A stretch of DNA of 64,000 bases from Lachnospiraceae bacterium. GTDB taxonomy: Bacteria > Bacillota_A > Clostridia > Lachnospirales > Lachnospiraceae. The stretch spans positions 66,033 through 130,032 of the forward strand of contig JAFXDD010000022.1 in NCBI GenBank assembly GCA_017516285.1. Direction: 5' to 3'. Positions 33,495 through 48,890 of the stretch are shown piece by piece (within the stretch, counting starts at the first letter, position 1; every line of letters begins with the position of its first letter). A program made the position numbers and the translations under genes. Below the pieces are notes generated by a model. It was not told where the DNA came from. It did no database searches and worked only from the letters and a program-made list of their open reading frames with translations.

Positions 33495-33924
33495 TTACCA
33501 CGTAATGCCTTCCTTCTCCGGCTCTATGACATATATACTCCAAATTGCCTGCTCATCATTTATGCTATTCATATTAACAAGCCACAGCTCGTCATCTACC
33601 TTCAATATACTATATCCAAGCATCAATGGTTGATACTGCACCTCATCATAATTTGCAAGCAGGTCCGTTTGTGCACCAAAACCTTCCATGGAATATAGGG
33701 CATTCCACTCTGCGTCCGTATATGGAAACTCCTGCCAGCCCCAATTAATGGGTCTATATTCTTCGCTGTTAGCTTGTCCCTCCGGAACATCAGCAGAATA
33801 AATTGGGCTAAAAAGAAGTGCCTTCCTTGCCAAGCTCCGAATCAACCTCTTTGGTGCTCTTGTAAGAGCATGCACTTAATGTCATAGACAACAGTATAGT
33901 TATTAATAAAAATTGCTTCTTCAT
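33495..33924 (-). pseudogene. Small lipoprotein of the shared-cassette family, frameshifted
   Basis: ATG 33924 overlaps the stop of the upstream lipoprotein (TAATG) and opens with a signal peptide and lipobox (MKKQFLLITILLSMTLSACS, then YKSTKEVDSELG) nearly identical to the neighbours. The frame then meets TAG after about 38 codons. The rest lies in another frame: SPIYSADVPEGQ, then NWGWQEFPYTDAEWNALYS and LGYSILKVDDELWLVNMNS. A one-base shift near 33805-33835 explains this. The C-terminal domain is unlike the other family members. It is probably inactive, and its end runs into the truncated DUF975 frame. Confidence 0.75.
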
Positions 33925-34715
33925 TACTCAACACTATCCTTTTCAACCTCTATCCCATATGCCATTCGTGTATTATCAATCTCCTCCTGCATATACTTTA
34001 TTGTCCCCTCCTGCTCACAGACTGTTTCAATATAATCAAAATACTCGTCCAATATTTCGGTCGGAATGTCAACTGCTTTACTTGTATTTTTAGATAACTC
34101 CTCAAAGACGTAGATTTCTCCTTCATGGTAAAGTGCCAACGGACTCATTAAAGCTTTTTTTACTTCATCTATGTCCTCTAGGTACAAAGCATCTATGGTC
34201 TCTGCAGTTAAATATATGCCACCCTTCTCATTGTTCTTTTTAATAAGGTCTTCTTTGGAAATCTCCAAATCTACAATAATTTGATAAATCGTTGGAAGTG
34301 CTTCCTGCTCTTCGGCTGATTTCTTCAAAAACACGTTATCAACCCATTCCTGACAAGCTTCTCTACCCACAACTAATGATGCCAAATGTATGTTGTAAAC
34401 TTCATCAATATACTTACGTAAGAACGAATAATCGCTACCACCAACAGCCGGTGCTTCTGCATATGTATCTTCGCTGCTTTCTGTAGCAGCCTCCACTGAA
34501 ACTGCGGTCTCGCTAACGCTTGTTGCAACCTCCACTGAAACTGCGGTCTCACTAACGTTTGTTGCAACCTCCTCTTCATGACTGACCTCGGTACTACCAG
34601 TTTCAGCAAACTGCGTTTCACCAATATCCGCATCGGCCTCCCCCGTACTCTTGTAAGAGCATGCACTAAGTGTCATTGACAACAGCATAGTTATTAATAA
34701 AAATTGCTTCTTCAT
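33924..34715 (-). CDS. Lipoprotein, shared-cassette family (C-domain type A)
   Basis: Translation probably starts at ATG 34715, after AGGAGG. Residues 1-19 form a lipoprotein signal with lipobox LSAC; the mature part starts CSYKSTGEADADIGE. Residues 20-50 are an acidic linker identical in type to that of the lipoprotein at 41008, then comes a duplicated VSETAVSVE stretch. The C-terminal 170 residues (DYSFLRKYIDEVYN... EVEKDSVE) closely match the lipoprotein at 44670-45422 and no family I recognise. It is attached to the outer face of the membrane; its role is unknown. It has its own promoter, which is also duplicated at 41 kb. Confidence 0.8.
   Translation of the reverse strand: MKKQFLLITMLLSMTLSACSYKSTGEADADIGETQFAETGSTEVSHEEEVATNVSETAVSVEVATSVSETAVSVEAATESSEDTYAEAPAVGGSDYSFLRKYIDEVYNIHLASLVVGREACQEWVDNVFLKKSAEEQEALPTIYQIIVDLEISKEDLIKKNNEKGGIYLTAETIDALYLEDIDEVKKALMSPLALYHEGEIYVFEELSKNTSKAVDIPTEILDEYFDYIETVCEQEGTIKYMQEEIDNTRMAYGIEVEKDSVE
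34490..34567. repeat. Two tandem 39-bp coding repeats
   Basis: Units at 34490-34528 and 34529-34567 differ at two positions and encode VATSVSETAVSVE twice in the lipoprotein linker, extending it by 13 residues. Confidence 0.85.
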
Positions 34716-34830
34716 TACGATATACCTCCTGTTCAACCAGATGTTTTGTTACTATGATTATAGCAATTTAAAGCACATTTTTGAACCCACTTCATAAAAT
34801 CTTAAGTTATAAATAAGATTCCTTCATTAC
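34566..34830 (-). repeat. Lipoprotein 5' cassette, copy 1
   Basis: About 265 bases covering an inverted repeat (AATCTTA-N9-TAAGATT at 34798-34820), the promoter, the ribosome site, signal peptide and acidic linker are nearly identical to 40859-41122. Downstream coding sequence is unrelated. Confidence 0.85.
34757..34785 (-). promoter_or_regulatory. Promoter in lipoprotein cassette copy 1
   Basis: On the minus strand TTCAAA and TATAAT are 17 bases apart, about 40 bases ahead of ATG 34715. Confidence 0.65.
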
Positions 34831-34844
34831 TAATTCCCCAGAAT

Positions 34845-35495
34845 TTATTGGGTATAATTTTCATCATAAAATATATTGTACATATCAGAGATTACAATAT
34901 TTTCTCCAAACTCTAATTGAAAATAAACATGCGTCATAAACTTATCTTTTAGTGTATCTGCATCCAATAATTCAACAGTGTCTCCATCTAAAACAACTTT
35001 TGTAAGTAGCAGTTCTGTCTCGCTCATTGTTTCGGTTCCGCTTGGTGTTGCAAACATTTTTATATTATCTGGAGTTCCGCCTTCCCACTGTATTAGAATA
35101 CTTTCAATCTGTGCTGAATTGTGCCACAATGCTTCTTCCATAACCACGTCTTGATTACAATCATAAAAAGTAATGCTTTTTATATTAGGAACTTTTATTG
35201 TATCAGAGTTTTTATTATGTATCCATACGACTAGAAATATGATTGCCAAAATGATAGCAATAATCCATCCTAATAATTCCCTTAATGCCATTTTTCTATT
35301 CTTTGTAACCGTATTTTCTGCTATTTCAATATTGAGGATTTTGGTCAGCATTTCTTTATTAATACCTTGGGGAAGGGAACTTCCATTTTCCCATTTTGAA
35401 ACTGCTTGGCGACTTACTCCCAGTTGAAATGCCAGTTCCTCTTGAGATAGATTTCTCTTTTCTCTTTCGTGTTTAATTTGTTCTCCTAAAGTCAT
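34845..35495 (-). CDS. Membrane-anchored XRE-family regulator
   Basis: Residues 1-60 are a Cro/CI-type helix-turn-helix (LGEQIKHEREKRNLSQEELAFQLG, then VSRQAVSKWENGSSLP). Residues about 73-91 form one transmembrane helix (LLGWIIAIILAIIFLVVWI), and the last 120 residues lie outside. This layout suggests a one-component sensor whose external domain perceives an envelope or secreted signal; the external domain matches no family I recognise. The promoter region carries two GCAAC...GTTGC palindromes, one inside the promoter spacer, so autoregulation is likely. It is flanked by lipoprotein genes. Confidence 0.8.
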   Translation of the reverse strand: MTLGEQIKHEREKRNLSQEELAFQLGVSRQAVSKWENGSSLPQGINKEMLTKILNIEIAENTVTKNRKMALRELLGWIIAIILAIIFLVVWIHNKNSDTIKVPNIKSITFYDCNQDVVMEEALWHNSAQIESILIQWEGGTPDNIKMFATPSGTETMSETELLLTKVVLDGDTVELLDADTLKDKFMTHVYFQLEFGENIVISDMYNIFYDENYTQ

Positions 35496-35531
35496 GATAT
35501 AATTCCTCCATGTAATATTTTATACAGCCTT

Positions 35532-35587
35532 ATTATATCCGCAACAGCAGTTGCAAACCACCACCTTAACGCAACTTGGCAGTTGCG
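35532..35587 (-). promoter_or_regulatory. Promoter with two palindromic operators for the XRE regulator
   Basis: TATAAT (minus strand, 35532-35537) has no good -35. The palindrome GCAACAGCAGTTGC at 35541-35554 fills the promoter spacer and CGCAACTTGGCAGTTGCG at 35570-35587 lies further upstream. Both share GCAAC and GTTGC half-sites. Confidence 0.6.
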
Positions 35588-35636
35588 ACTGCTGTAAAGA
35601 CTTTGCAATTAATAAATCTTCTCATTGGCTATTCTC

Positions 35637-37961
35637 CTAATACTGCTCCTGCATATATAATTGCACTCTATTTTGAATAAGCCCCATTACCTCCCGGGCG
35701 CTCTTCTTCCCACTAAAGTACACATCCATCTCCTCTAAAATAATGCTATACATGGTGCTGTCTATTACAGAGCTTAGCTCCACGCTATCTATCAAATTCC
35801 AGAACTCCGCTGCGTTTTCTTCGGAAATTTGATAAATGTAAACCGGTTCTTCCCATTCAAAATGGACCTGTTCCTTGGCCACTGGCTCCTCTGCGCCTTC
35901 TGCGTTTATACTGTATTCTACAGTCATAGCTTCTTCTATATATCTCTGTAAAAGCGTGCGTGAAACCGGTAAGTCAGTCAGCTTCTCCTGATAAGCCGGT
36001 TCCAGTGTCCCTGCCAGAAAATCCAAAGCTTCCTCGGTGTGCTCACTTAAGGCATTGATACTGAAGGCATAGCCTGCTATCTCTGCTACATTACCGCTTT
36101 GTCCTTCCAACGGATATCCCATGTAGGCCACCTCTTTTCCACAAAACATGGTCTCTACACGGCATGTACCAAACACATCCGACAACGTAAGGGGATATAA
36201 TAACGCCCTTCCTTCGCTAAACAGTGCTTTTAAAGAAGTATCTTCATCAAACTGCAGACTCTCCGGAAAACCATTAGAAAACCCCATCATTCTTAAAAAG
36301 CTATCCTGCTCAAAGTTACAAGTCCCCTCTGACCAGTCCACAAACTGCCCGATACTGCCACTGCATAAACAGCCGAATACAGACAGTTTGGTCTCACCCG
36401 GAAAGAGTATGCTGCCCTCTTCCCTGCTTTCGTAATAGTCCATAAGTGCCTGCACATTCCATCCTGACATTTCGTCTAATTCTGCGTCCTTCAAAGCAAT
36501 GGTACCCACCTTAAATTCCGGCACTAAAACATATAATCCATTATCCAGTGCAAAAGCTTCTAAAATGTTTTTGGTATACGTTTCTTCTGACAATGTCTCC
36601 ACAAAATCAGATAAATCCAGAAATGCTTCATTGGTCACATAGGCAGGCGTATAGAAAGACCCCCAATTAACGATATCCGGTCCTTTTCCAGTTGCAATTT
36701 TTATCAGCAGATTGCTGATGGCCTCCTGAAGGGTGACTTCTCCCAGTATAAGCTGATTTTCTATCACAACTTCATAATCACTCTGAGTAGCATTGTATTC
36801 CTGCACATACTGTGCAAGCAGTGCATCCTCTCTAAATACCGCCAACGTTACCTGTTCTTTTTGCTTTGTTTCTTCCTTGGTGCTATTTACTTCCTTTAAA
36901 AGTGGAATATAATAAATCTTTGTACCCTCTGCCATATTCACAATACTATTATTCACTACAGAAACAGCAGGCACTACCATAAGCAAACGTCCATCCTCCA
37001 TGATACAGGTTTTGCTACCATCCACTGCACAAGGAAAATTCTTTGGAGCAAGATATACACTTTCCTCCCCATCTGCACTGTATTTACATATACCATAGCC
37101 CGGTCCGTACAGAGTCAAATCGCTGTCAAAACCCATGCCCACAGCAGCAAACATGCTGCCACTAAACTCCGAACTCAAACTATCTTCTTCTAGGGTCAGA
37201 CTCGCTCCATCGCATTTAGCAAGTACATTGGTGCCATCCTGCTTCCAAAGCACTGCATACACGCTGCCATCCTGTGCTCTTCCCAAAGCATCAATATGTG
37301 AATACTCCTTCTCATTGGCAATCGCTCCAACATAACTACCCGTACCATCAAACACTAAAAACAGCTCTTCTCTCATAATACCGATGCGTACAAAAATATA
37401 CCCCTCTGCATCCACTGCAACAGCCCACGGAGAAGACTGTGCCGGCACCAATTCCGTTATATCGCACTCTAGCAGAACATTGCCTTCTCCGTCCAGCTTC
37501 CACAGAAGCATTTGCTTTATATTTCCAGTTGCATCCTTGCCGCGCAACACCGTATAAATATTACCGGCAGTGTCTGTTGTAATTACCATTGGAGCAAGCC
37601 CCTCCGGCAGCTCCGCTAACACTGCTTTCGATACACTCTCCCCAATAGTCATTTCATAGATGCCTGTATATGCACCCTGTTCACAGGTAAAATAAATTTT
37701 ATCTCTGTAATTGCAGATATCGTATATCAGAGCTTTACCGGTGTAATCTACCTCTAAGGCTTCGTAGCTAATCGGTATCGGTGACAAGCTCTCCCCGTCT
37801 GCTGTAAAGGAAGTATTTGAAATAGCTGACTTCTCTTCATTCGGCACGCTTTGCCTGGATTCATCGGTAAATCCAGGCTTTTCCTTTAAAGCTGTGCCGC
37901 AACCCATAAGACAGCTTAATATCATTATAATTATAAGTATTAAAATTCCGGTTCGTTTCAT
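35637..37961 (-). CDS. Large solute-binding-like lipoprotein with propeller-like N-domain (774 aa)
   Basis: A lipoprotein signal (ILIIIMILSCLMGCG) is followed by about 330 residues of repeated beta strands (GDNIYTVLRG-type units such as NIYTVLRGKDATG and GYIFVRIGIM), resembling a beta-propeller. From about residue 385 an extracellular solute-binding domain begins (VTLAVFREDALLAQYVQEYN, GKGPDIVNWGSFYTP, NGLYVLVPEF). The C-terminus ends ISMNRV-like LIQNRVQLYMQEQY, a common ending in sugar-binding lipoproteins. No permease or ATPase genes accompany it. A four-fold 11-bp repeat precedes it. It is a paralogue of the next gene; the ligand is unknown. Confidence 0.8.
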   Translation of the reverse strand: MKRTGILILIIIMILSCLMGCGTALKEKPGFTDESRQSVPNEEKSAISNTSFTADGESLSPIPISYEALEVDYTGKALIYDICNYRDKIYFTCEQGAYTGIYEMTIGESVSKAVLAELPEGLAPMVITTDTAGNIYTVLRGKDATGNIKQMLLWKLDGEGNVLLECDITELVPAQSSPWAVAVDAEGYIFVRIGIMREELFLVFDGTGSYVGAIANEKEYSHIDALGRAQDGSVYAVLWKQDGTNVLAKCDGASLTLEEDSLSSEFSGSMFAAVGMGFDSDLTLYGPGYGICKYSADGEESVYLAPKNFPCAVDGSKTCIMEDGRLLMVVPAVSVVNNSIVNMAEGTKIYYIPLLKEVNSTKEETKQKEQVTLAVFREDALLAQYVQEYNATQSDYEVVIENQLILGEVTLQEAISNLLIKIATGKGPDIVNWGSFYTPAYVTNEAFLDLSDFVETLSEETYTKNILEAFALDNGLYVLVPEFKVGTIALKDAELDEMSGWNVQALMDYYESREEGSILFPGETKLSVFGCLCSGSIGQFVDWSEGTCNFEQDSFLRMMGFSNGFPESLQFDEDTSLKALFSEGRALLYPLTLSDVFGTCRVETMFCGKEVAYMGYPLEGQSGNVAEIAGYAFSINALSEHTEEALDFLAGTLEPAYQEKLTDLPVSRTLLQRYIEEAMTVEYSINAEGAEEPVAKEQVHFEWEEPVYIYQISEENAAEFWNLIDSVELSSVIDSTMYSIILEEMDVYFSGKKSAREVMGLIQNRVQLYMQEQY

Positions 37962-37992
37962 AAAAGCACCTCACATTTTGTATATGTATAAA

Positions 37993-38046
37993 AGCATAGC
38001 TGATGGCTGTTAAAAGGCTGTTAGAAAAGTGTTAGAGGGATGTTAA
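37993..38046 (-). promoter_or_regulatory. Four-fold 11-bp repeat (PhoP-box-like) and -10 box
   Basis: On the minus strand TTAACA, CTAACA, CTAACA and TTAACA recur at exactly 11-base spacing (plus-strand starts 38041, 38030, 38019, 38008). Nine bases after the last is TATGCT, a candidate -10 box. This matches the arrangement of PhoP (OmpR-family) activator sites in Bacillus: four TTAACA-like repeats with five-base spacers directly upstream of the -10. Confidence 0.65.
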
Positions 38047-38061
38047 CCGCCTCATCATGCT

Positions 38062-40287
38062 TTAATCCATCTGCTCTTGCAAATATACACCCACTCTGTT
38101 TTGAATCAGTGCCGTCACCTCATCCAGACTTTTTTGTCCCTCAAAAAAGAATTCCGCTTCTTCGTTAATGATATTTTGAATGTGGGTATGGTACTTAAAT
38201 TTTACATCAGCCCGCTGGATTAACTGCTTTACGGCATCTACATCACTTTGGGTTGCCTCATAAATTTCTATATAGTTATTGCTATCCTTATATGTACGGT
38301 TAATTACGGGTACCTCTCCCTCAGGAGTTGAAGCATACGTTTTTTCCATTACCTGCTCCATTTTGGTATCAAACTGTGTTTTTATAACAGGAAAGCCACC
38401 ATTCCCGTAACCATTCATCAGATAATATTTTATAAATTCCCATGCCTTATCCTGATTTTCTCCCTTGGCATTGATTGCCAGCTGGCTACCCCGGAAGCTT
38501 ACCGCTGTGCCGCTTCCCTCCACAGCAGGATAGCCGATAAAATCCAAATTATCTCCATACAGCTTCGCCTGCAGCTGATAATCGGCCACGCTGGATATCA
38601 GGCCTACCGACATTAAAATGTCGCCCTTTTGGATATCTGCCGACAGACTTCCGTTTTTATAGCCACCTTTATATTCTTTTGCAAACTCCAAAACTTCCTT
38701 AAAGCCTTCGCTTTCAAAGCTGCAAGTACCACTTTCCCAATCTATAAATTCATCCATTCCCATAGTGCAAAGCGTTGTCAAGACCGGTTCATCAGCAGAA
38801 AACCCATTTATGGCATTAATATTTTTGCCATTATTCTTTAAAATCTGCATTAACTCCGTTAAGGTAACGCCATACCGCCCCTGAACAATCGAATTGCTGC
38901 CCCACATGGAATAAAGCTGGAAGGCAGGCGCTATGTTATATAAATGCCCCTCCAATTCGTATGCACGCAAAGCACTTGGCATAAGCTGCTCCTTGCAGCA
39001 CTCACTATCCTGCTCCATATACAAATACAAATCTACAAATGCATTCTTCTTGGCCAACATCTCGTAGTCAATCATGGATACTTCTAAAATATCCGTTGCC
39101 TCACCTCTGACGATATCCAGCTTTAATTGCTCTACTCCTGCATCAAAGCCTTCCTCTTCGTCATAATAAGTAATAATTTCTATCCTGATACCATCGCTAA
39201 AACGGTTGAAACTTGTTACCGCATCCTTTAATTCTGCAAAAGCCTCCATACTACCCAGCGTCAGTATTATTTCCTCACTTTGCCCAACTTCAAGATATGT
39301 ATATTCGGAATTGCCGTTTTCATCATAGTTATCCACAATCTCAATTGCATCCCCCTTCATTCCCAGATAAATAATGTCTGACGGATATATACCATATGTG
39401 GAAAGCTCTAACAGTTTCTCTGCAGCCTGTTCCTTAAATAAATATTTATACACACCACTTCCCCGACAAAACAGGAACCCACCTTCTATGGCAGAAACCT
39501 TTTCCATATCATTTAAGGAACCCACATCCTCCATACGTATCTTTTCAGTCGCCCCTTCTTGTTCCGCGTGCACCTCCTGCACATACACTCCCTCTGGATC
39601 CTTTGCCAGCATGACCGGAACACCATCACTGCCAACGGTAAAGCTTAAAAGCTGTGAGCCATTTGAATTTGGTACCTGTTCATAAAACAAGGTATCTAAC
39701 CGGGCATCCTTTACATATATCTGATCAACCAGTGTATAGACATTTTCCGGTTCATCCTCCCAGAACTCCCTTATTGGCAAAATTGTTTCATACCAGAAAT
39801 AAAAATAACCTGCATCATCCACATATAAGCCTTTTGGAACAACCTCATGTCGTTCATTTACATGATCCAGTACAAAATCTCCTAAGGCGCTAAGCTCCCC
39901 ATTATGGTCTATTTTCCAAAAAATTTCCTTATCCCTTGTCACGCCCAGTACATATATATTCCCATTGGTATCTACCGTTATGGTGCGAACCTCCGTTACT
40001 CCCTCTATTTTTACTTCCTTTAAAATTTCATTTCCTTCCGCCTCTTGAAATACCACGGTAGCCCCGGTGCTGTCAATATAACATCCATACACGATATCAT
40101 CCTTCACCACAGCCTGTTCCAAATGACAGCCCAGAGAATAATGCGTAGCCTTCCACGAAACAACCTCTGCCTGCTGCGCCTCATTTACACTTTCCTTACC
40201 GGAAATATCTATGCTTTCTTTACTGCAGGCTGATAAAGTTACAAGGATACAGAAGCATAGCAGTAGATTTGTAAATCTTTTTTTCAT
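38062..40287 (-). CDS. Large solute-binding-like lipoprotein with propeller-like N-domain (741 aa)
   Basis: The lipobox is LVTLSACS. Residues 40-330 are strand-rich repeats (NIYVLGVTRDKEIFWKIDHN is one unit) and the C-terminal 400 residues are a solute-binding domain: IILTLGSMEAFAELKDAVTSFN, IVRGEATDILEVSMIDYEML, LEGHLYNIAPAFQLYS, and the ending DEVTALIQNRVGVYLQEQ. It shares its order and ending with the 774-residue protein downstream, so the pair arose by duplication. It starts eight bases after the stop of the small lipoprotein at 40295 and is probably co-transcribed with it. No transporter membrane genes are nearby, suggesting a sensing or orphan-binding role. Confidence 0.8.
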   Translation of the reverse strand: MKKRFTNLLLCFCILVTLSACSKESIDISGKESVNEAQQAEVVSWKATHYSLGCHLEQAVVKDDIVYGCYIDSTGATVVFQEAEGNEILKEVKIEGVTEVRTITVDTNGNIYVLGVTRDKEIFWKIDHNGELSALGDFVLDHVNERHEVVPKGLYVDDAGYFYFWYETILPIREFWEDEPENVYTLVDQIYVKDARLDTLFYEQVPNSNGSQLLSFTVGSDGVPVMLAKDPEGVYVQEVHAEQEGATEKIRMEDVGSLNDMEKVSAIEGGFLFCRGSGVYKYLFKEQAAEKLLELSTYGIYPSDIIYLGMKGDAIEIVDNYDENGNSEYTYLEVGQSEEIILTLGSMEAFAELKDAVTSFNRFSDGIRIEIITYYDEEEGFDAGVEQLKLDIVRGEATDILEVSMIDYEMLAKKNAFVDLYLYMEQDSECCKEQLMPSALRAYELEGHLYNIAPAFQLYSMWGSNSIVQGRYGVTLTELMQILKNNGKNINAINGFSADEPVLTTLCTMGMDEFIDWESGTCSFESEGFKEVLEFAKEYKGGYKNGSLSADIQKGDILMSVGLISSVADYQLQAKLYGDNLDFIGYPAVEGSGTAVSFRGSQLAINAKGENQDKAWEFIKYYLMNGYGNGGFPVIKTQFDTKMEQVMEKTYASTPEGEVPVINRTYKDSNNYIEIYEATQSDVDAVKQLIQRADVKFKYHTHIQNIINEEAEFFFEGQKSLDEVTALIQNRVGVYLQEQMD

Positions 40288-40294
40288 AATATTT

Positions 40295-41008
40295 TTATTC
40301 CTCCGTGCTTTCTAAGCTTTCAATATCTAACTTAGCATTCGTCAGCACATTAATATACTCGCCATCCTTCTCCTGAAATACATTATAACCGCCCGCTGAC
40401 AAGCCATAATATCCTTTATAAATATCGTTATCCGTTAAATCAAGCACAAAAATGTAATATTCCTGGCCTTGCACTAACTCATAGTAAGATTCATTCTTTA
40501 TTAGAATCATTTCCTCTAGTTCTTCTGGGGTAAGCTTATCAGCATTGAGTTTTAATTTTGCGCCTTCATCCTTCGTATCAATAAATTCCTGCATTGATAC
40601 GATGCCGCCACCACTGTCAGCCAGCTTTATATTTTTCGGAACACTGCCATCATCATTCATTAATACGTCCAAGACCTCTACATTGTATGTACTGTCAGGC
40701 ATACCAGAATTTTTTACAAAAAACTTCGTTTTTTCTTTTGTTATGACTCGAATTTTTAACAAGTAATCGGCATGCTCACATACAACTGCCGGATCTAATA
40801 CATTAAACGCCCAACTACTTTCAGCAGAAATAACTTTAACAACATTATCCGCTTGTACAACCTCCTCTTCATGACTGACCTCGGTACTACCAGTTTCAGT
40901 AAACTGCGTTTCTGCAATATCCGCATCGGCCTCCCCCGTACTCTTGTAAGAGCATGCGCTAAGTGTCATAGACAACAACATAGTTATTAATAAAAATTGT
41001 TTCTTCAT
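40295..41008 (-). CDS. Lipoprotein, shared-cassette family (C-domain type B)
   Basis: Start at ATG 41008 after AGGAGG. Residues 1-50 (signal peptide, LSAC lipobox, linker ending VSHEEEV) are almost identical to the lipoprotein at 34715, but the remaining 187 residues are different: SSWAFNVLDPAVVCEHADYL, VEVLDVLMNDDGSVPKNIKL and QGQEYYIFVLDLTDN. This C-domain resembles small secreted beta-rich domains in Firmicutes of unknown function. The gene is driven by a duplicated promoter and followed by a solute-binding-like gene after seven bases. Confidence 0.8.
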   Translation of the reverse strand: MKKQFLLITMLLSMTLSACSYKSTGEADADIAETQFTETGSTEVSHEEEVVQADNVVKVISAESSWAFNVLDPAVVCEHADYLLKIRVITKEKTKFFVKNSGMPDSTYNVEVLDVLMNDDGSVPKNIKLADSGGGIVSMQEFIDTKDEGAKLKLNADKLTPEELEEMILIKNESYYELVQGQEYYIFVLDLTDNDIYKGYYGLSAGGYNVFQEKDGEYINVLTNAKLDIESLESTEE

Positions 41009-41122
41009 TATGATATACCTCCTGTTCAACCAGATGTTTTGTTGCTTTATTATAGCAATCTAAAGCACATTTTTGTACCTACTTCATAAAATCTTAAGTT
41101 ATAAATAAGATTCCTTCATTAC
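40859..41122 (-). repeat. Lipoprotein 5' cassette, copy 2
   Basis: This is the second copy of the promoter-signal-linker block (see 34566-34830), with the same AATCTTA-N9-TAAGATT inverted repeat at 41090-41112. Identity stops after the codons for SHEEEV. Confidence 0.85.
41049..41077 (-). promoter_or_regulatory. Promoter in lipoprotein cassette copy 2
   Basis: TATAAT with TACAAA 17 bases upstream on the minus strand, about 41 bases before ATG 41008. The spacer is nearly identical to copy 1. Confidence 0.6.
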
Positions 41123-41172
41123 ACCAAAAGAACTGCACCCACCAGTACAGTTCCCTCGTTGTCAGCCTCCAG

Positions 41173-42038
41173 TTATTCAATCCGACTTCTCACCCACTCC
41201 TCCGACACATTCAGACGCTTCGCTGCTTCTGACAAATTAATGATGCCGTCCTTTACCAGTGAAATATAAGCCTTTGCCTCACCTTCACTTCTAATCCTTT
41301 TTGCCTCATAATCCAAAATTCTTCCACCCATAACACTAGCTACTCCTTCCTTTACCTTCTCGTGCTTAGCTGCAATATGTCCAAGCACCTTCTTACACAT
41401 ATCAATAATGCAATGCCTGGTATACTCGTCAATCTCGCCCTTTTCGCTAAGTGCCGCCAGACGTTCCATAATATCCTGATAAATCAACTCCAGCTCTTCT
41501 AATTTCTTCTCATCTTTATTATACATCTTAAATTGGTTTTTGTACACAAAAATATGGAAAGGAATTAAAAAATATAACTTCTTTTTAAAGAGCTCGTTCA
41601 CGGAATAGTTTTTGATTTTCAGCACCTGAACTGCATATGTAACCTCACCGTCCGGTGTTTTGATAGTAACACTTAGCTTGTCCGGCGTATCCCTGGTGCT
41701 GCTCAGATAAATAACCGCAGCCTTTGGCAACTCCACTGTCAGCCCCTCTGCTGTCAGCTCCGCATCCTCCAAGGCTATCTGGGTGTCGTATTCAAACATC
41801 CGGATAATCATACTGTGGTCCTCTGTGCTCTGACTTTCAATATGATAATTCCTTTTTCCGAAGCTTCCACAAATCATAAAATGGCTGTCGGTTACCCGCT
41901 TATCTTCCTCACCATCCTGCTGCTCCATGTAGTGCACGTCACTGCCTAGCTCCACCTTTTCCTCTCCTGTAGCAGCTGGGGGCAGTCATTAACCATGGTA
42001 CGGTGTACGTCATCATAAGGCGTCGAAGATTTTTTCAT
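41173..42038 (-). pseudogene. Rpn/PD-(D/E)XK nuclease-family protein, disrupted near the N-terminus
   Basis: The long frame (41173-41955) matches the C-terminal four fifths of Rpn-family recombination-promoting nuclease proteins: DSHFMICGSFGKRNYHIESQ, STEDHSMIIRMFEYDTQIALE, and a later LKIKNYSVNELFKKKLYFLIPF, with a helix-turn-helix-like tail (LSEAAKRLNVSEEWV). Upstream, ATG 42038 encodes MKKSSTPYDDVHRTMVNDC, the family N-terminus, but this frame ends after about 30 codons and a short segment is deleted between the parts. The gene is therefore broken. It sits inside the lipoprotein region and separates two lipoprotein groups. Confidence 0.75.
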
Positions 42039-42310
42039 AAAGCACTGTCCTTTCATAAGCTTGAAGGGACAAGCATTTCTATCCGGAAAATCCTCTACAG
42101 ACACACCAGACATTTATTGACAAAAATATCCCTCTAATACATATAGGCATTAAGGGCGCATTTTGTCACAAAAATTATTATTAAATTTTTATAAAGAAAG
42201 ACTTGAAGCCCTAAGCCCCCAAGCCTTTCTTCGTGTATAGGCATAAGAGGCCATAGCTCATGCAAACCATAGCCTCCCAATAAAAAGCAAATCCAACACC
42301 AAAATCAGTC
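42039..42310. other. Gene-free stretch between Rpn pseudogene and lipoprotein operon
   Basis: It contains the operon terminator at 42196-42229 and a second imperfect hairpin (GAGGCCATAG with CTATGGCCTC-like arms, about 42247-42287). The remainder is AT-rich and shows no reading frame or RNA that I recognise. Confidence 0.5.
42196..42229 (-). terminator. Terminator after the agr-proximal lipoprotein operon
   Basis: On the minus strand GAAAGGCTTG pairs with CAAGTCTTTC (one G-T or mismatch) around a 14-base loop, followed by TTTAT. It lies about 80 bases after the stop at 42311. Confidence 0.6.
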
Positions 42311-43339
42311 TTATTCCCCAAAATCCATGATATTTACTTCCAGCTTAATACTGCCATTATCTGATAATGCAATACTACCTATCAGTCTGCCTCTGCCGGA
42401 TGGACCATCATAGCAGTAAATCTCCCAATTCTTTTCATCCACACGTAATGCAACGGTATGCTCAGGTACATGATAGGTTTCTTCACCAGCCACAATCTCA
42501 TATGCCAGGCGAGAAGCATTTTCCGGAGTAATAAGCTCGCGATACTCCTCTTTAAAGTATGGCACACCACCTGTCGCTGACAGCGCCATTTCCATATTAG
42601 AAGGTTCAAATGCCCCTTCCTTAAAAGAAACTGCTTCAGTTAACTGTGCAAGTGCTTTTTCAGAAAGTAGCGCTTTATTGACTGAGAAACAGTATCCCTT
42701 ATTCGCCCCCTCTTTACTCCAAAGCACATCCACATACTCGCAGGACTCCTTACAGGCTTCCTCCGTATCAGCAAACAAGCCGGCCGCTATCAGCCACTCC
42801 GTATCACCATAAGCATATGGCAAATCAGAAACAAGGAAGGTATATCGCACCACACCATCTATCGTTTCCTGGGACTGCGGCTTCACACTTCCATGGGAGC
42901 TTCGCTGTGCATGAAACTGCATAAACTGCCTCTCGGTTTGCAAGCCGCCCTCCGGCAACTCTATAATCTCAAACCTGCCGCAATGAATACCCTGATTGTA
43001 AATAGTAACAAAACTACGAGACACCTCTCCACTATCCGATACATTCTCATTATACACATATGACAACCCCTCTACAGCATCCAACTTGACATAATCGCCT
43101 TCAAAAGCGTCTGTGGCATATTTTTTCAGGTAGTCAGCTAATTCAAGATTTACTATAGAGTCTTCAGCATAAGCATTACTGACAACCGTCTCAACAAACT
43201 GTGTTTCTCCAACATCTGAATCTACTTTCACACTCCTGTAAGAGCATGCACTAAGCAACACTGCCACTAGCATAAATATAATTAAAAATCGCTTTTTCAT
43301 AATAGTGTATGGAGCAAATACCGATATTAATTTTTTCAT
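42311..43339 (-). CDS. Lipoprotein, shared-cassette family (C-domain type C), with fused leader
   Basis: Residues 14-33 form a lipoprotein signal (MKKRFLIIFMLVAVLLSACS) and the linker VDSDVGETQFVET resembles the other family members. The 270-residue C-domain (ADYLKKYATDAFEGDYVKLD, QTERQFMQFHAQRSSHGS, DTEWLIAAGLFAD, EIYCYDGPSGRGR) is not recognised. The only good ribosome site, GGGAGG, precedes ATG 43339, so 13 extra residues (MKKLISVFAPYTI) come before the usual start. Those residues and the ribosome site match the start of the M23 peptidase gene at 46.5 kb, showing recombination between paralogues. Confidence 0.75.
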   Translation of the reverse strand: MKKLISVFAPYTIMKKRFLIIFMLVAVLLSACSYRSVKVDSDVGETQFVETVVSNAYAEDSIVNLELADYLKKYATDAFEGDYVKLDAVEGLSYVYNENVSDSGEVSRSFVTIYNQGIHCGRFEIIELPEGGLQTERQFMQFHAQRSSHGSVKPQSQETIDGVVRYTFLVSDLPYAYGDTEWLIAAGLFADTEEACKESCEYVDVLWSKEGANKGYCFSVNKALLSEKALAQLTEAVSFKEGAFEPSNMEMALSATGGVPYFKEEYRELITPENASRLAYEIVAGEETYHVPEHTVALRVDEKNWEIYCYDGPSGRGRLIGSIALSDNGSIKLEVNIMDFGE

Positions 43340-43363
43340 CGCAACACCTCCCGATTTTTAATT
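43280..43363. repeat. 12-bp inverted repeat framing the recombined leader
   Basis: AATTAAAAATCG at 43280-43291 is the exact complement of CGATTTTTAATT at 43352-43363. The enclosed 60 bases hold the ribosome site and the leader that resembles the M23 gene start. The repeat may mark an insertion or form a stem near the ribosome site. Confidence 0.65.
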
Positions 43364-43379
43364 GGTTGCTTTTTGGAAC

Positions 43380-44600
43380 TTATTTAGTCAAATAGAGAGT
43401 ACCCTGATATCCACATTTACAAGTAGCTGTAATAGTTCCATCTCCGTTATTTACCTGTCTATAATAAGCATGTACACCAAGTGGCATAAACTCTAAATCA
43501 CCTGTTGACTGATATGAATTTCCATAGAATGCATTTAAAATTTCCTCATATGTTTTTCCGGCATTTGCCATATTATTAGCCAAATTCAAATTCATTCTTC
43601 CGCTATTTTCTGCACCTTCACTATCTGATGTAGTATACCAGCTATAAATTCGTGAATAATCTGTACTAAAGAAATTTACATTCCATATTGTTTCAACTCT
43701 CGTATATATGGTTGTCCAAGTAGAATTATTCCAATATTCATCCGGATTATATATCTGATAAGAGCTAGGATAATTTGTATTTGTTGCATTTGTATCAGTT
43801 ACATGATAATTCGCATTAGAGTCAGCAGTCACTACATAATACCAACCGTAATTTCTTATAGCCAAAATGCCCGCATAATGATAATCTGCATCTCTTCTAA
43901 CATATCCTAGCTCTCTACAAGCCACAACCTTAACATATTTTTGTAAATCTACGCTCTCAATAACCCCATTACCATATTTCCATCGTGCCACAGTAATAGT
44001 TGACGGAAGCTGATTGTATGAACATGCATATGAAGAATATGTCGTAGTATCTGCTCCAAATCTCATGACAGAATAATTAATCGCTTCTTCTTCACTTTCA
44101 TGGTCTTCTATAGTATCCGGCAAAGGCATTCTGAATGCTACAATTTTTCTTTCTCCATCAACAGTTCCTATAAATACTAAATTGTAATTCATTCCATCCA
44201 AGTAAAATTCATTATCAACCTTTGTTTCTATATCTGACTTTACAAGATATATGGAAATATCCTCTCCTTCGCAAGTATTAACTATCGGCAGATATGCACC
44301 GGAATCTACTAGCCCCTTATTTTCAACAGAATTAACTTTCTCAATTGAATAAACGCCCAATTTATTTTCCTGATAATATGGACTATTTATGTATGACTCC
44401 ATTTGGCCTGCATACTCGGTGCCCATCAATCCAAGTAAATCGTCCCAATTTTTATCAGATACATAATCATAATAACTTTCAATAATCATGTTGTCAACTT
44501 TATCGTAGTCATTTTGCATTTCGGATGCATAAGCTTTATTGCCTGTAATCCCAATTAGTAATGCTAAAGCACATATCGTCTGAAATAAGTATTTCTTCAT
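43380..44600 (-). CDS. Secreted protein with SpoIID/LytB-like domain
   Basis: A signal peptide (MKKYLFQTICALALLIGITG, cut after AYA) is followed by about 150 uncharacterised residues and then a region like SpoIID/LytB: TVARWKYGNGVIESVDLQKY, VKVVACRELG, AGILAIRNYGWYYVV and NNMANAGKTYEEILNAFYGN. SpoIID-type proteins cut glycan strands after sporulation or modify amidase activity. The final 35 residues contain CKCGYQG, a possible metal or disulfide knuckle. ATG 44600 follows AGGAGG. Its position between lipoproteins and downstream of an M23 peptidase suggests cell-wall work outside engulfment. Confidence 0.65.
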   Translation of the reverse strand: MKKYLFQTICALALLIGITGNKAYASEMQNDYDKVDNMIIESYYDYVSDKNWDDLLGLMGTEYAGQMESYINSPYYQENKLGVYSIEKVNSVENKGLVDSGAYLPIVNTCEGEDISIYLVKSDIETKVDNEFYLDGMNYNLVFIGTVDGERKIVAFRMPLPDTIEDHESEEEAINYSVMRFGADTTTYSSYACSYNQLPSTITVARWKYGNGVIESVDLQKYVKVVACRELGYVRRDADYHYAGILAIRNYGWYYVVTADSNANYHVTDTNATNTNYPSSYQIYNPDEYWNNSTWTTIYTRVETIWNVNFFSTDYSRIYSWYTTSDSEGAENSGRMNLNLANNMANAGKTYEEILNAFYGNSYQSTGDLEFMPLGVHAYYRQVNNGDGTITATCKCGYQGTLYLTK

Positions 44601-44669
44601 AGAATTTGTCCTCCTGAATAAAATGTTTTTCATGTAACTATACTAAGCTTTCTTCGCCTATTCATGCCT

Positions 44670-45422
44670 CTACTCAACACTATCCTTCTCAACCTCTATC
44701 CCATTCATCGTTCGTGCATTGTCAATTTCCTCTTGCATATACTTTATAATACCATTCTGCTCACAGACTGTTTCAATATAATCAAAGTACTCATCCAAGG
44801 TTTCCGTCGGAATATTAACTGCCATACGTGTTTTTTTAGACAACTCTTCAAATGTGTATATTTCTCCGTCCTGGTAAAGTGCCAGCGGACTCATCAAAGC
44901 TTTTTTCACTTCTTCTATGTCCTCTAGGTACAAAGCATCTATGGTCTCTGCGGATAAATATATCCCACCATTCTCATTATTCTTTTTAATAAGGTCTTCT
45001 TTAGAAATCTCCAAATCTACAATCATTTGATAAATCGGCGGGATCGCTTCCTGCTCCTCGGCTGGTTTTTTCAACAACACGTTATCGACCCATTCATCAC
45101 ATGCCTCTGCACCTACAACTTCTGAAGCTAATTGTATATTGTAAACTTCATCAATATACTTGCGTAAGAAAGCATAGTCGCCACCACCGATTGCCGGAAT
45201 TTCTGTGGATGTTTCTTCGTTGGTTTTGCTTGCTTCATCTACAGAAGCAGAAATATGACTTTCGATTGGTACTGCATCTTCTTCATGAACGGAACTAATT
45301 TCAACTGACTCCGAAACATGACTTTCACCCACATTTGAACCTACATTCTTTTCATTTTTATAAGAGCATGCACTAAGCGTAACGGCTAATAACGTAAATA
45401 TTACTATAAATTGCTTCTTCAA
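44670..45422 (-). CDS. Lipoprotein, shared-cassette family (C-domain type A)
   Basis: The C-terminal 175 residues (DYAFLRKYIDEVYNIQLASE to EVEKDSVE) are very similar to the lipoprotein at 33924-34715, including SKEDLIKKNNE, ALYLEDIEEVKKALMSPLAL and CEQNGIIKYMQEEIDN. The signal ends LLAVTLSACS. A TTG at 45422 is the preferred start: it aligns with the MKKQF start of the paralogues and lies nine bases after GGAGG, whereas ATG 45431 directly abuts the ribosome site. Only 20 bases separate it from the M23 gene upstream, so both are likely one transcript. Function unknown. Confidence 0.8.
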   Translation of the reverse strand: MKKQFIVIFTLLAVTLSACSYKNEKNVGSNVGESHVSESVEISSVHEEDAVPIESHISASVDEASKTNEETSTEIPAIGGGDYAFLRKYIDEVYNIQLASEVVGAEACDEWVDNVLLKKPAEEQEAIPPIYQMIVDLEISKEDLIKKNNENGGIYLSAETIDALYLEDIEEVKKALMSPLALYQDGEIYTFEELSKKTRMAVNIPTETLDEYFDYIETVCEQNGIIKYMQEEIDNARTMNGIEVEKDSVE

Positions 45423-45450: not shown

Positions 45451-46524
45451 TTAATATGAATATGTGAAGCTTACATTAGGATAAAAGAAAAATGGATTTA
45501 ACGATCTTGCCTGCGTTAAACTCGCACCAGTACTACCATCGGAAATAACTGAAAAATGTAAATGATTTCCACCAGAGGCTCCTGTATTTCCTACTTTACC
45601 AATCTGAGTCACACCTTTTGTTACAGTATCATTCAAACTCAATGTGGTCGCTTCTTGCATATGTATATACATCGTCCTAATTTTTGTTGAAGTTCCATAT
45701 ACATAATTACTTGAAGATTCAACTATTACACCATGTCCTCGTCCGGAGGTGGTACTTAACTCTTTTATTATTTCTACAACCTTTCCCGTATTGGCACTCT
45801 TTATTGCAGTACCGGCACTTGCAGGTATATCGATACCTGCATGGAATTTTCCATCATAATTACGCTTTGCATAACCTGAGGATATTGTAGTCACAGATAA
45901 AGGAAAGCTAAAGTTCATATTAGCATATGCTGTTTCATCAGCCGTAGATATTTCTGTGAAAGTCCAAAGTTGATTGTTTGAACCTGTATATGTTGACAGA
46001 TATATATTACCTGTTGATGTTGAAGCAGTTCCGCCATTTGATCCGTTGCTTGTGCCATATGACGTCAAAGCAACCGCAGGATTTGCAACCGGAACAATTT
46101 TGTATTTGCCACTTGACACTTGAATAATGTCAAAATACTGCGCCACATTATCTGTCGGTGCCCATATTTCAACATTACAGCCTGGAACTACAGAACCACC
46201 GGATTTCACAATATCTAAAACTCTATATTGTCCATTAGCGCTTGTCTTCGCTCTAAATCTGTATCCGCCATGATTATTGTTATATGATGCATCATAAACT
46301 ACCTTAAACTTTTGTTCCACAGATCCATCATCTGTCCACTGATATACATTCACACCATTTTCGTCATAATTGTTATTTACATTAATACACTTACCACTGG
46401 CAACATTGGTTATTTTATAAACTTTACCACTTGTTATACCAGGAGCCTGGGCTGCTGAAACACAAAGATTAGTTGTACAAATGCATAAAATGATTAATGC
46501 AAATACTGATATTAATTTTCTCAC
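45451..46524 (-). CDS. Secreted RICIN-like lectin plus M23 peptidase
   Basis: GTG 46524 follows AGGAGG. After a signal peptide ending VSAAQA, residues about 30-190 form a RICIN-type carbohydrate-binding domain (GKVYKITNVASGKCINVNNN; QYFDIIQVSSGKYKIVP; SNNQLWTFTEI). The C-terminal 140 residues are an M23 (LytM) zinc peptidase domain with FHAGIDIPA supplying the first His and Asp, IRTMYIHMQ, and GGNHLHFSV supplying the second HxH. M23 enzymes cleave peptidoglycan cross-bridges. The gene leads the envelope operon and has a LytTR-type direct repeat upstream, so Agr control is likely. Confidence 0.88.
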   Translation of the reverse strand: MRKLISVFALIILCICTTNLCVSAAQAPGITSGKVYKITNVASGKCINVNNNYDENGVNVYQWTDDGSVEQKFKVVYDASYNNNHGGYRFRAKTSANGQYRVLDIVKSGGSVVPGCNVEIWAPTDNVAQYFDIIQVSSGKYKIVPVANPAVALTSYGTSNGSNGGTASTSTGNIYLSTYTGSNNQLWTFTEISTADETAYANMNFSFPLSVTTISSGYAKRNYDGKFHAGIDIPASAGTAIKSANTGKVVEIIKELSTTSGRGHGVIVESSSNYVYGTSTKIRTMYIHMQEATTLSLNDTVTKGVTQIGKVGNTGASGGNHLHFSVISDGSTGASLTQARSLNPFFFYPNVSFTYSY

Positions 46525-46619
46525 TATAATACCTCCTGAATTATAATATTTTCTCGTAGCATCAATGACACCCTCACCATACCTCATTCACTATTAAATT
46601 TCAACCCTTCCTGCGCGAA

Positions 46620-46719: not shown

Positions 46720-47298
46720 TTAATATTCAATTTTCATCATGCGCATTACCACGCATGGTATCTGGAGTCCTGCTGACAAAATCAATCCAACTGCAATGCA
46801 AACGGCCGCTGACCGTAGTCCTAAAACCAGCAGTATCAAATGCAATACTGCAAAAACGGTTGCCATCACAGCTGTGATAACCTTGTAGCGGATTTTCTCG
46901 TCATCGTCCAATCTGCGTTTTTCAGAATCGATAGGGCTGAATACAATCAGACTTATCCCGGCAAGCATTAGACAAATGCTTATCACCACACCATATTCCA
47001 GATGTGCTGCCGCATAAATGCAGAGCATAATCAGCAGGCTGGAAACTATCAGGCAGGTACGTTCATGCTTGGCATGAAAGCCACCGCTGAACTTCCGGAT
47101 AGCCATAAAAGGTAAAATCATAAGCACTGCCTTCCACGGAGCTCCCATCAGGATACCAAATACCAGTGCCAAGAGCAGTGGTGCTATCAACAGCCACAGA
47201 CTATGTATTGCGTACTCATATAGCTCTCTGTCTGAGGCCTCAATCACACCACTCTCTATCAGCAAAGTAACAATTCCCCTTGAGCCTTTAGAATTCAT
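46720..47298 (-). CDS. agrB: AgrB-type autoinducer processing peptidase
   Basis: The 192-residue membrane protein has four to six hydrophobic segments and the AgrB catalytic stretch MAIRKFSGGFHAKHERTCLI, with His75 and Cys82 in the spacing of staphylococcal AgrB. AgrB cleaves the C-terminal tail of AgrD and forms the thiolactone ring before export. The start ATG overlaps the agrD stop (TGATG), so the two are translationally coupled. A TTG one codon earlier is less likely. Confidence 0.93.
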   Translation of the reverse strand: MNSKGSRGIVTLLIESGVIEASDRELYEYAIHSLWLLIAPLLLALVFGILMGAPWKAVLMILPFMAIRKFSGGFHAKHERTCLIVSSLLIMLCIYAAAHLEYGVVISICLMLAGISLIVFSPIDSEKRRLDDDEKIRYKVITAVMATVFAVLHLILLVLGLRSAAVCIAVGLILSAGLQIPCVVMRMMKIEY

Positions 47299-47447
47299 CA
47301 ATTCTTTTTAAAGCGGCTTAATTCCTTCGGTGCCTTTGGTTCGAAAATAATCACACAGGATGCTGAATTTGCTTCTGTACGTAACACAGAGTTCAATACA
47401 CTTGCTACACCTTTAGCAGCTTTTTTTGTAATTTTTTCTTTCTTCAT
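47298..47447 (-). CDS. agrD: AgrD-type cyclic autoinducer peptide precursor
   Basis: The 49-residue precursor has an amphipathic leader (KKEKITKKAAKGVASVLNSV), a peptide core and a charged tail. The core ANSASCVIIF followed by EPKAPKELSRF fits the cyclic lactone autoinducer family: the conserved EPK-P marks the AgrB cleavage point after Phe35. Ring closure between Cys31 and Phe35 would give a five-residue thiolactone CVIIF with an N-terminal exocyclic tail. ATG 47447 is preceded by GAGGAG. It lies upstream of agrB in the same transcript. Confidence 0.9.
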   Translation of the reverse strand: MKKEKITKKAAKGVASVLNSVLRTEANSASCVIIFEPKAPKELSRFKKN

Positions 47448-47541
47448 GCCGTAGTTGTCTCCTCTCGTATTTTTCGTCATTGAATACTACATAATTTATA
47501 TTACCGCAAAAAGGTAATTCTCGCGACCCCTTTTACTCAAG

Positions 47542-47571: not shown

Positions 47572-47599
47572 TCCCCTTCTTTTCGTTCTAAAATACAAA

Positions 47600-47665: not shown

Positions 47666-47744
47666 GTATAGCTTTGTTTATTTTTAGCAATACTATTGAT
47701 AAAATAAATAAAATGTCTGATTATTCAGGAGTTGGTACTATATT

Positions 47745-48077
47745 ATGGAAACACAGAGAAAACAAATAGGTAATAGAATCAGCAAGCGCCGCAAAGTGCT
47801 TCATATGACGCAAGCATATGTTGCAGAGTACTTAGATTGCTCTAACAATACTTTATCTTCAATAGAAAGAGGCCAACAAGGAATTACTGTAGAAACACTA
47901 CTTAAACTTTGTGAATGTCTGGATACCACCCCCAACCATTTACTGTTAGGTAATAGGCATCCTAATGACATTCCTATGGACATCTTGGATACGCTTCGTT
48001 TATGTACTGAAGAACAAGTACGGCTGACACGCGATTTTGTTGAAATGCTATATTCTAATAAACATATCGATTTTTGA
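47745..48077 (+). CDS. XRE-family regulator next to agr
   Basis: The 110-residue protein has an N-terminal helix-turn-helix (IGNRISKRRKVLHMTQAYVA, then LDCSNNTLSSIERGQQG and TLLKLCECLDTTPNHLLLG) followed by a short C-terminal helix pair. It lacks any sensor domain, so it probably regulates by level or by protein contact. It is divergent from agrDB and immediately precedes the response regulator and kinase on the same strand, which suggests it tunes the quorum-sensing system. A perfect terminator hairpin begins at its stop codon. Confidence 0.8.
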   Translation: METQRKQIGNRISKRRKVLHMTQAYVAEYLDCSNNTLSSIERGQQGITVETLLKLCECLDTTPNHLLLGNRHPNDIPMDILDTLRLCTEEQVRLTRDFVEMLYSNKHIDF

Positions 48078-48104
48078 CCATTTTCGTACGAAAATGGTCT
48101 TTTT
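48076..48104 (+). terminator. Terminator at the XRE stop codon
   Basis: GACCATTTTCGT and its exact complement form a 24-base palindrome followed by TTTTTAT. It separates the XRE gene from the promoter of the response regulator. Confidence 0.75.
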
Positions 48105-48115
48105 ATGCAATTTTC

Positions 48116-48144
48116 TTGTTTTTTTCACGCTACACCTATATAAT
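48116..48144 (+). promoter_or_regulatory. Promoter of the agrA/agrC-like operon
   Basis: TTGTTT and TATAAT are 17 bases apart, ending 35 bases before ATG 48179. Confidence 0.7.
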
Positions 48145-48178
48145 AAAAGTAAATATTTTACTAAAGGGGAACCCACCT

Positions 48179-48886
48179 ATGCGAATTTTAATATGCGATG
48201 ACGACGAGCTTGTCAGACGACAAATTCATAAATTTCTACGTGACTATTTTAAAAACGCGCATTTATCATGTCCGGAAATAGTGATGTACGAAAACGGGGA
48301 ATTATTATTAAAGGACACGGGCGATAAGGACATTGTTTTTCTGGATGTTGAGATGCCTGGTCTAAAGGGCATCCATGTAGGGCAGGAGCTGCAAGAGTCC
48401 AATCCACGGATTATTATCATTATGGTCAGTGCTTTCCCGGAATATCTGGATGATGCCATGCGCTTTCATGTTTTCCGGTATTTATCCAAGCCATTGGAAA
48501 AGCTGCGCTTTTTTCAAAATATGAAAGATGCCTTGCAAAAGTACAATTCCACAGCAGGCAAGGTTGTTATTGAATGCCGTGATAAAAACAATGTAACTGT
48601 GTCCAAAGCAGATATCATTGCAGTGGAGACTGCGGAACGCAAGATTATTATACATACAGTTGGTCAAAAATACGAAAGCACTGAGACTATGACTTATTGG
48701 CGTGAAAAGCTTCAGGATAAATGCTTTATCACGACCCACAAAAGCTTTATTGTAAACATGATGTATGTAATCAGCTTTACTCCAACTCTTATACAGCTGG
48801 AAAATGAAGTCACTGCATACCTGACCAAAAGAAAATACAAGGAATTTAAACGCGCATACCTTTTGTATGTGGAAGGCTTGAGGTAA
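48179..48886 (+). CDS. AgrA-like LytTR response regulator
   Basis: Residues 1-120 are a receiver domain: MRILICDDDELVRRQI with the acidic pocket, FLDVEMPGLKG with phospho-acceptor Asp56, MVSAFPEYLDDAM and YLSKPL with the conserved lysine. Residues 135-235 are a LytTR DNA-binding domain (KADIIAVETAERKIIIHTVG; WREKLQDKCFITTHKSFIVNM). ATG 48179 after AAGGGGA removes a hydrophobic stretch that overlaps the promoter. It is expected to be phosphorylated by the kinase encoded five bases downstream and to bind the 9-12-9 repeats upstream of agrD and of the M23 gene. Confidence 0.92.
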   Translation: MRILICDDDELVRRQIHKFLRDYFKNAHLSCPEIVMYENGELLLKDTGDKDIVFLDVEMPGLKGIHVGQELQESNPRIIIIMVSAFPEYLDDAMRFHVFRYLSKPLEKLRFFQNMKDALQKYNSTAGKVVIECRDKNNVTVSKADIIAVETAERKIIIHTVGQKYESTETMTYWREKLQDKCFITTHKSFIVNMMYVISFTPTLIQLENEVTAYLTKRKYKEFKRAYLLYVEGLR

Positions 48887-48890
48887 CTAT

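Follow-up and report, generated by a model that had tools for sequence, protein, structure and literature searches.

The DNA analyzed here, referred to below as the window, is a 64,000-nucleotide (nt) stretch from a Lachnospiraceae bacterium (NCBI GenBank assembly GCA_017516285.1, contig JAFXDD010000022.1, positions 66,033 to 130,032). Between 33.5 and 46.6 kb, its minus strand carries four intact lipoprotein genes with related N-termini, named A1, A2, B, and C after their C-terminal domains (domain A occurs twice), and one broken copy (Table 1). The front ends of A2 and C, from the upstream region through the ribosome site and signal peptide into an acidic linker, consist of one nearly identical block of DNA (the cassette), behind which stand unrelated domains. 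A signal peptide and a lipobox cysteine are present, by motif, in A1, A2, B, and C, the products of which are predicted lipoproteins; their likely starts, read from the ribosome sites, are 34715 (A2), 41008 (C), 43339 (B), and a TTG at 45422 (A1). The first-pass annotation of this DNA had listed five small lipoproteins with the lipobox LSACSY[KR]S and three or four unrelated C-terminal domains. That motif is found in four of the five, A1 having LSACSYKN instead, and the presumed fifth lipoprotein at 33495 is the broken copy, in which the lipobox and the C-terminal part lie in different frames. The lipobox frame of this copy opens at 33924, in a TAATG that overlaps the A2 stop, and ends after 38 residues. 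The intact genes carry domain A (twice), B, and C, and the fourth domain, D, is the C-terminal part of the broken copy.

The unit of about 265 bp that had been described at 34566-34830 and 40859-41122 was recovered at 95 to 96% identity, as two direct repeats of 189 nt (34565-34753 and 40858-41046, 95%) and 74 nt (34757-34830 and 41049-41122, 96%). Its upstream part, 115 nt in A2 and 114 nt in C, differs by six mismatches and one gap, and the first 50 codons differ by seven mismatches in 150 nt, with two amino-acid changes. Identity ends just past codon 50, where the break had been placed. Chance is excluded for this block: a 41-nt piece of it had two exact matches, compared with none in 100 shuffles. 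Because the noncoding and coding parts are about equally conserved, the cassette looks like copied DNA and not like the outcome of protein-level selection alone.

Smaller signals within the cassette are less distinct. The proposed inverted repeat, AATCTTA-N9-TAAGATT, is present in both copies and has no other occurrence in the window when up to two mismatches are allowed, but it is not significant alone, as 14 of 100 shuffles contain at least two such matches. A promoter had also been suggested, and the A2 copy does hold TTCAAA-17-TATAAT with an extended TG; the corresponding place in the C copy is unlisted by the promoter scan. In all, the region has 44 promoter-like matches, no more than shuffled sequence contains on average (46.0), and "promoter" is a reading. 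The 9-mer GTAATGAAG occurs at 33919, 34710, 34822, and 41114, that is, at the outer edge of both cassettes and at the starts of A2 and the broken copy, and these sites make up four of its five occurrences in the window (0.54 expected). Because its paired sites are copies of each other, it is at most a weak hint of possible microhomology.

Patchwork in the window extends beyond the cassette. The genes at 33924 (A2) and 44670 (A1) do have a common C-terminal domain behind diverged linkers, as had been claimed: their domain DNA is 86% identical over 300 nt, and their linkers agree in only 15 to 36 columns per 60. The 5′ end of gene B is itself a patch, in which a 47-nt stretch at the ribosome site and first codons (43290-43360) matches the 5′ end of the neighboring gene for an M23 peptidase with a ricin-type lectin domain (46480-46545), with a local score of 44 against a maximum of 26 in 1,000 shuffles; in B, this patch is placed ahead of a second lipoprotein start. 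The A2 linker also contains a 39-bp tandem repeat (34482-34572, 2.3 copies), which is a likely site of length change.

The C-terminal domains had been called unrecognised, and this description holds, since A, B, and C lie below every Pfam and NCBIfam cutoff. Their weak family matches (DUF1972, DUF4995, BSAP5b, cytochrome c551, and phrog_8801) fall mostly on the signal region; those to cytochrome c551 and phrog_8801 cover it, and that to BSAP5b covers residues 2 to 65 of B. Searches of solved structures with the proteins gave no convincing match, and a match of gene B to 9bvp (E value, 9e-4) was judged unconvincing. Profile comparison with hhalign found A, B, and C mutually unrelated and D unrelated to any of them, the highest probability being 0.5%.

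A search of 5.8 billion proteins with residues 1 to 50 of A2, open to proteins of about 145 to 460 amino acids and dependent on common 5-residue words, kept 13 of 14 candidates, 10 with domain A and 3 with domain C (one of them the window's own). The first-pass annotation had named, as support, the same cassette with different C-terminal domains in other strains; only the A and C pairings already in the window were found, and nothing in these sequences suggests a large domain repertoire behind the cassette. The C protein gave 39 matches, comprising 10 A2-type proteins detected through the N-terminal part and 29 proteins with domain C, among which the cassette is present in 3 (including that of the window), 25 begin with a different N-terminus, and the last is a fragment. 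Since most domain-C proteins (25 of 29) have other N-termini, gene C most likely gained the family front end within this clade. The A2 protein gave 47 matches, which coverage assigns to the three cassette-bearing C-type proteins and 44 domain-A proteins. By labels that we assigned from the N-termini, these 44 comprise 10 A2-type and 13 A1-type proteins (one being the window's own) and several with an MKKEDLF-type membrane anchor, and the rest differ. The relatives of A and C bear the names Lachnospiraceae, Oscillospiraceae, or Clostridia. The A1 protein of the window is counted on five contigs, and so is its C protein.

Other assemblies contain the same parts in different pairings. Compared with one relative (P0045), the C protein of the window agrees at 50 of 52 positions in the N-terminal part and 162 of 184 in the domain; compared with another (P0047), it agrees at 37 of 52 and 180 of 185, an incongruence with a Fisher P value of 7e-6 when residues are treated as independent. 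In a further protein, P0028, an A1-type linker like that of P0022 leads into domain A, and the roughly 180 N-terminal residues ahead of them match nothing in the window; P0028 and P0022 have an internal duplication in the linker/domain-A part in common. P0028 has four members (longest contig, 5,012 nt) and P0045 has three members on three contigs. The longest contig stated for P0001 has the same length as that stated for P0016 (11,924), a hint, though no proof, that another strain also has A2 and A1 together. These comparisons support reassortment of N-terminal parts and domains between strains.

Domain A itself is mosaic across the paralogue types. At 15 of its alignment columns, the same residues vary in A1-type and in A2-type proteins; 4 columns separate the two types, 12 vary within the A2-type only, and 29 vary within the A1-type only. 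A test of neighboring-site incompatibility, modeled on the pairwise homoplasy index (PHI) and implemented by us, gave a value below all 2,000 permutations (0/2,000) for all 28 rows, for the 23 lipoproteins, and for the 14 rows from contigs of 5 kb or longer, a signal that clustered variable sites could inflate. The rows, used also for trees, are the A2 protein of the window and 27 of the 44 domain-A proteins (P0001-P0010, P0012-P0023, P0025-P0027, and P0029-P0030). The other 17 (P0011, P0024, P0028, P0031-P0043, and P0046) were excluded because they are truncated, begin oddly, are fused, or are distant; P0024 was among them for its differing start motif. Approximately unbiased (AU) tests reject the A1-type as a single clade in both halves of domain A (7.8e-5 and 1.9e-5) and the membrane-type as a single clade in the first half.

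Several observations weigh against reassortment, in addition to the residue independence assumed by the Fisher test and the home-made PHI-like test. Most branches are weakly supported in the trees of both domain-A halves; the AU test does not reject the A2-type as a clade in either half (P = 0.10 and 0.25), nor the membrane-type in the second (P = 1.0). P0047, one side of the incongruent pair, has one member on two contigs. The differently paired proteins are predictions from other assemblies, some of which chimeric assembly may explain.

The surroundings of the cluster are summarized in Table 1. The cluster comes after agrD and agrB and faces the LytTR regulator and GHKL kinase, an agr-type set (46720-50192) recognized by AgrD (TIGR04223, 1.6e-10), AgrB (PF04647, 6.8e-36), LytTR (2e-15), and HATPase_c_5 (1.7e-20) matches. 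A small HTH_3 gene (47745-48077) lies within the agr region, and a hairpin followed by T's can be read between agrB and the M23 gene, which the scan that gave the promoter-like matches does not list. The two genes at 35637-40287, which have similar C-terminal ends and of which the second also matches a beta-propeller repeat, would be lost on recombination between the flanking cassette repeats. Directly upstream of cassette copy 2 is an open reading frame (ORF; 41173-41955) with no family above cutoff, which may be a shortened PD-(D/E)XK transposase-family protein; the protein at 43380 may resemble SpoIID. Pfam and NCBIfam support neither of these two resemblances.

Table 1. Features of the lipoprotein cluster and its surroundings (positions in the window)
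Feature	Position	Strand	Description
5′ cassette copy 1 (A2)	34566..34830	-	Inverted repeat, promoter-like region, ribosome site, signal, acidic linker to codon 50
5′ cassette copy 2 (C)	40859..41122	-	DNA about 95% identical to copy 1
A2 lipoprotein	33924..34715	-	Cassette, linker with 39-bp repeat, domain A
C lipoprotein	40295..41008	-	Cassette and domain C; P0044
B lipoprotein	42311..43339	-	M23-gene-like ribosome site and first codons, lipoprotein signal, related linker, domain B
A1 lipoprotein	44670..45422	-	Diverged N-terminus and linker, domain A; P0013
Broken copy, signal and lipobox part	33808..33924	-	Third copy, without upstream part
Domain D (C-terminal part of broken copy)	33495..33875	-	Frame other than that of the lipobox; no family match
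HTH_3 regulator	34845..35495	-	Between both cassettes; membrane segment by reading
Two large lipoprotein-like genes with SBP_bac_1 domains	35637..40287	-	Between both cassettes
Protein of unknown family	43380..44633	-	Signal-like N-terminus; between A1 and B
M23 peptidase with ricin-type lectin domain	45451..46587	-	Upstream neighbor; 5′ end in common with gene B
agrB and agrD (cyclic autoinducer peptide)	46720..47480	-	Upstream of lipoprotein cluster
LytTR response regulator and GHKL histidine kinase, agrA/agrC-like	48074..50192	+	

Relatives of domain A in other genomes point to a function for it. In two loci (L001 and L002, 9087-10507 in each), it is the C-terminal part of a protein encoded directly after an extracytoplasmic function (ECF) sigma gene; this protein has a membrane segment by reading and no Pfam match, and is a candidate anti-sigma factor. 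In a third (L009, 4-2220), an M56/BlaR1-type peptidase domain (PF05569, 6.7e-45) is followed by a domain-A-like C-terminal part (2e-11 in its genome and 3e-20 at residues 501 to 636 in a search of six proteins), the position held by the sensor domain in BlaR1 (PMC7593790). Domain A also lies close to the end of large proteins that have no Pfam family (L008 and L010) and in lipoprotein-like proteins (L003 and L007). Because it forms the outer part of ECF-linked membrane proteins and follows an M56/BlaR1-type peptidase, domain A may be a module that is exported and senses or binds a ligand, used both by receptors and by lipoproteins that stand alone. Extracytoplasmic domains fused to membrane regulators sense outside ligands in RsiV, an anti-sigma factor and lysozyme receptor, and in BlaR1/MecR1 (PMC7593790, PMC5608400), and the relatives of domain A occupy the corresponding position. 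Unlike in those proteins, domain A is below Pfam cutoffs and occurs also in stand-alone lipoproteins, and its sensor role is read from position. The extracytoplasmic placement in a membrane regulator, with topology by reading, belongs to the relatives only, the window genes being lipoproteins; against the sensor reading, the M56 protein and two other large proteins are only 28 to 33% identical to the A2 domain.

A genome scan for domain A returned three distant loci, and the domain is present in 5 of 22 genomes of one family (that of G002; cutoff, 1e-6). A sample of 391 genomes had its best MurC match in G302; in the family of that genome, domain A was found in 0 of 397 genomes at 1e-12, an empty answer that shows nothing in a set without a known match, and domain C in 1 of 299. 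Within the genus of G302, domain C and gene B were each found in 0 of 9 genomes. By MurC, the nearest genomes are 64 to 73% identical, and the species of the window was not encountered in these searches. There were no matches among plasmids (DNA search with the locus), phage records (A2 protein), or viral contigs (cassette pattern, domains A and C, and one SBP protein).

Taken together, the evidence makes it reasonably probable that these exported lipoproteins form a local family whose evolution proceeds by reassortment of gene ends. The 5′ unit, from the upstream region and ribosome site through the signal peptide and acidic linker, would be copied between nearby paralogues through gene conversion or homologous recombination, and the linker would tolerate the joins, so that unrelated outer domains would acquire one common expression and export front end; the outer domains would also recombine among paralogues. 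This reading draws on the sequence evidence for DNA copying in the window, unrelated domains, different pairings elsewhere, and domain-A mosaicism. Its agent would be general homologous recombination and not a dedicated recombinase, and the lipoproteins would be anchored outside the membrane.

The first-pass annotation had gone further, to a system that swaps domains behind a constant cassette and might serve surface variation or contacts with kin or phages. Its components stand, in that unrelated domains do follow one front end and the parts are paired differently elsewhere, but a dedicated system is not shown: no recombinase or integrase family was recognized among the nonoverlapping ORFs scanned from 23.4 to 55.7 kb (26199-27578 by NCBIfam only), and no store of silent copies was recognized. 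Because neither was recognized and the cassette was found only with domains A and C, a dedicated combinatorial swapping machine is not supported, and homologous recombination between nearby repeats explains the data equally well while assuming less. Within the region, the gene at 50413-51291, which adjoins the agr genes, has a subthreshold match to the Rpn recombination-promoting nuclease/putative transposase family (TIGR01784, 6.8e-5), and that at 28741-29694 has an IstB_IS21/DnaA ATPase match.

Other explanations account for parts of this evidence. One of them, in which a single lipoprotein gene was tandemly duplicated and the C-termini of the copies then diverged gradually, had been named in advance as the finding that would undo the first interpretation; it accommodates the common N-termini within one cluster, and A1 and A2 are real duplicates with alignable domains. 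It does not explain A2 and C, as A and C each belong to a family of their own in which other N-termini occur, domains A, B, C, and D are without detectable mutual relation, and identity breaks sharply at one point; we regard it as very improbable. Programmed surface variation, in which a recombinase shuffles expressed and silent lipoprotein genes within a population, would be in keeping with a constant 5′ unit bearing different domains, with a third copy that lacks the upstream part, and with the differently paired parts in other assemblies. It appears improbable, given that no recombinase or integrase family was recognized in the ORFs scanned from 23.4 to 55.7 kb, and given the presence of a separate upstream region in both full cassettes, the same orientation of all copies (so that inversion between them is not expected), and the finding of just two domain types behind the cassette among 5.8 billion proteins. 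The Vpma/vsp/vsa lipoproteins of mycoplasmas likewise have common sequence at their gene 5′ ends (PMC2268961); unlike in those systems, here no adjacent tyrosine recombinase was recognized and no silent repertoire was seen, and each full cassette has its own upstream region, although promoter matches are at chance level.

Exchange between strains could also be an illusion created by repeated cassettes that produced chimeric metagenome contigs, and several mosaic proteins do come from contigs of 0.9 to 1.4 kb (P0004, P0006, P0009, and P0022). We find this quite unlikely, as the recombination signal persists when the rows are restricted to the 14 from clusters with a longest stated contig of 5 kb or more, P0045 and P0028 have three and four members, and the mosaic within the window (A2/C, A1/A2, and B/M23) is independent of other assemblies, with the A1 and C proteins each seen on five contigs. 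An unlikely further possibility is that the genes encode polymorphic lipoprotein toxins or immunity proteins under agr control, either SitA-like or providing self-protection against the M23 enzyme. Different C-terminal domains do follow a lipoprotein N-terminus, the M23/ricin enzyme and agr genes adjoin the cluster, and B weakly matches the pore-forming toxin model BSAP5b, at 16.7 bits against a cutoff of 380 and over its signal and linker only. No toxin family is above cutoff in Pfam or NCBIfam for A, B, or C (PADLOC was not searched), the ORF list has no small common partner gene after each domain, although immunity genes can escape recognition, and the domain-A relatives occupy sensor positions. 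SitA lipoprotein toxins similarly join a lipobox N-terminus to polymorphic C-terminal domains (PMC5562445); here, in contrast, no cognate immunity gene or toxin domain was recognized, and SitA is delivered by outer-membrane exchange.

Evolution by reassortment of gene ends has its closest published counterpart in terminal reassortment, described for secreted effectors (Stavrinides 2006, as cited in PMC5675462), in which the secretion-signal end is joined to unrelated functional sequence and new exported proteins arise. Likewise, here the export-signal end is common at the DNA level to genes with unrelated C-terminal parts, and independent relatives with other N-terminal ends are established for domains A and C. 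The differences are that the unit comprises a lipoprotein signal plus the upstream region, that the genes form one local cluster, and that the copies look rehomogenized. Rhs C-terminal displacement, already described (PMC2935791), also combines a conserved N-terminal part, a replaced C-terminal part, and recombination guided by conserved sequence; here, by contrast, neither an Rhs core nor orphan tips were observed, and the 5′ ends appear mobile too. A Listeria metzincin/TIMP-like lipoprotein pair (PMC8235301) is similar in having a secreted peptidase beside an exported lipoprotein and XRE-type regulators, but its peptidase is of another class, and here the M23 enzyme and the lipoproteins are linked by gene neighborhood. 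Among the matches listed in open-licence full-text literature, nothing was recognized as this locus or as domain A.

Reassortment of gene ends would give a Clostridia-like bacterium a compact route by which an expression and export unit already in place acquires new outer domains. The most useful by-product is an unnamed, sensor-like domain, A, that recombines among surface lipoproteins and membrane-anchored proteins. More speculatively, and rather doubtfully at present, the quorum-linked lipoproteins may carry the outer sensor domain of ECF-linked and M56-type regulators and diversify by recombination as decoys, co-receptors, or inhibitors for a common outside ligand, perhaps secreted wall hydrolases similar to the M23/ricin enzyme; sensing and defense would then coevolve as an interstrain arms race. 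If the sensor reading is true, the ligand of domain A becomes directly testable, as does the question of why receptors and stand-alone lipoproteins would have a fast-evolving outer module in common.

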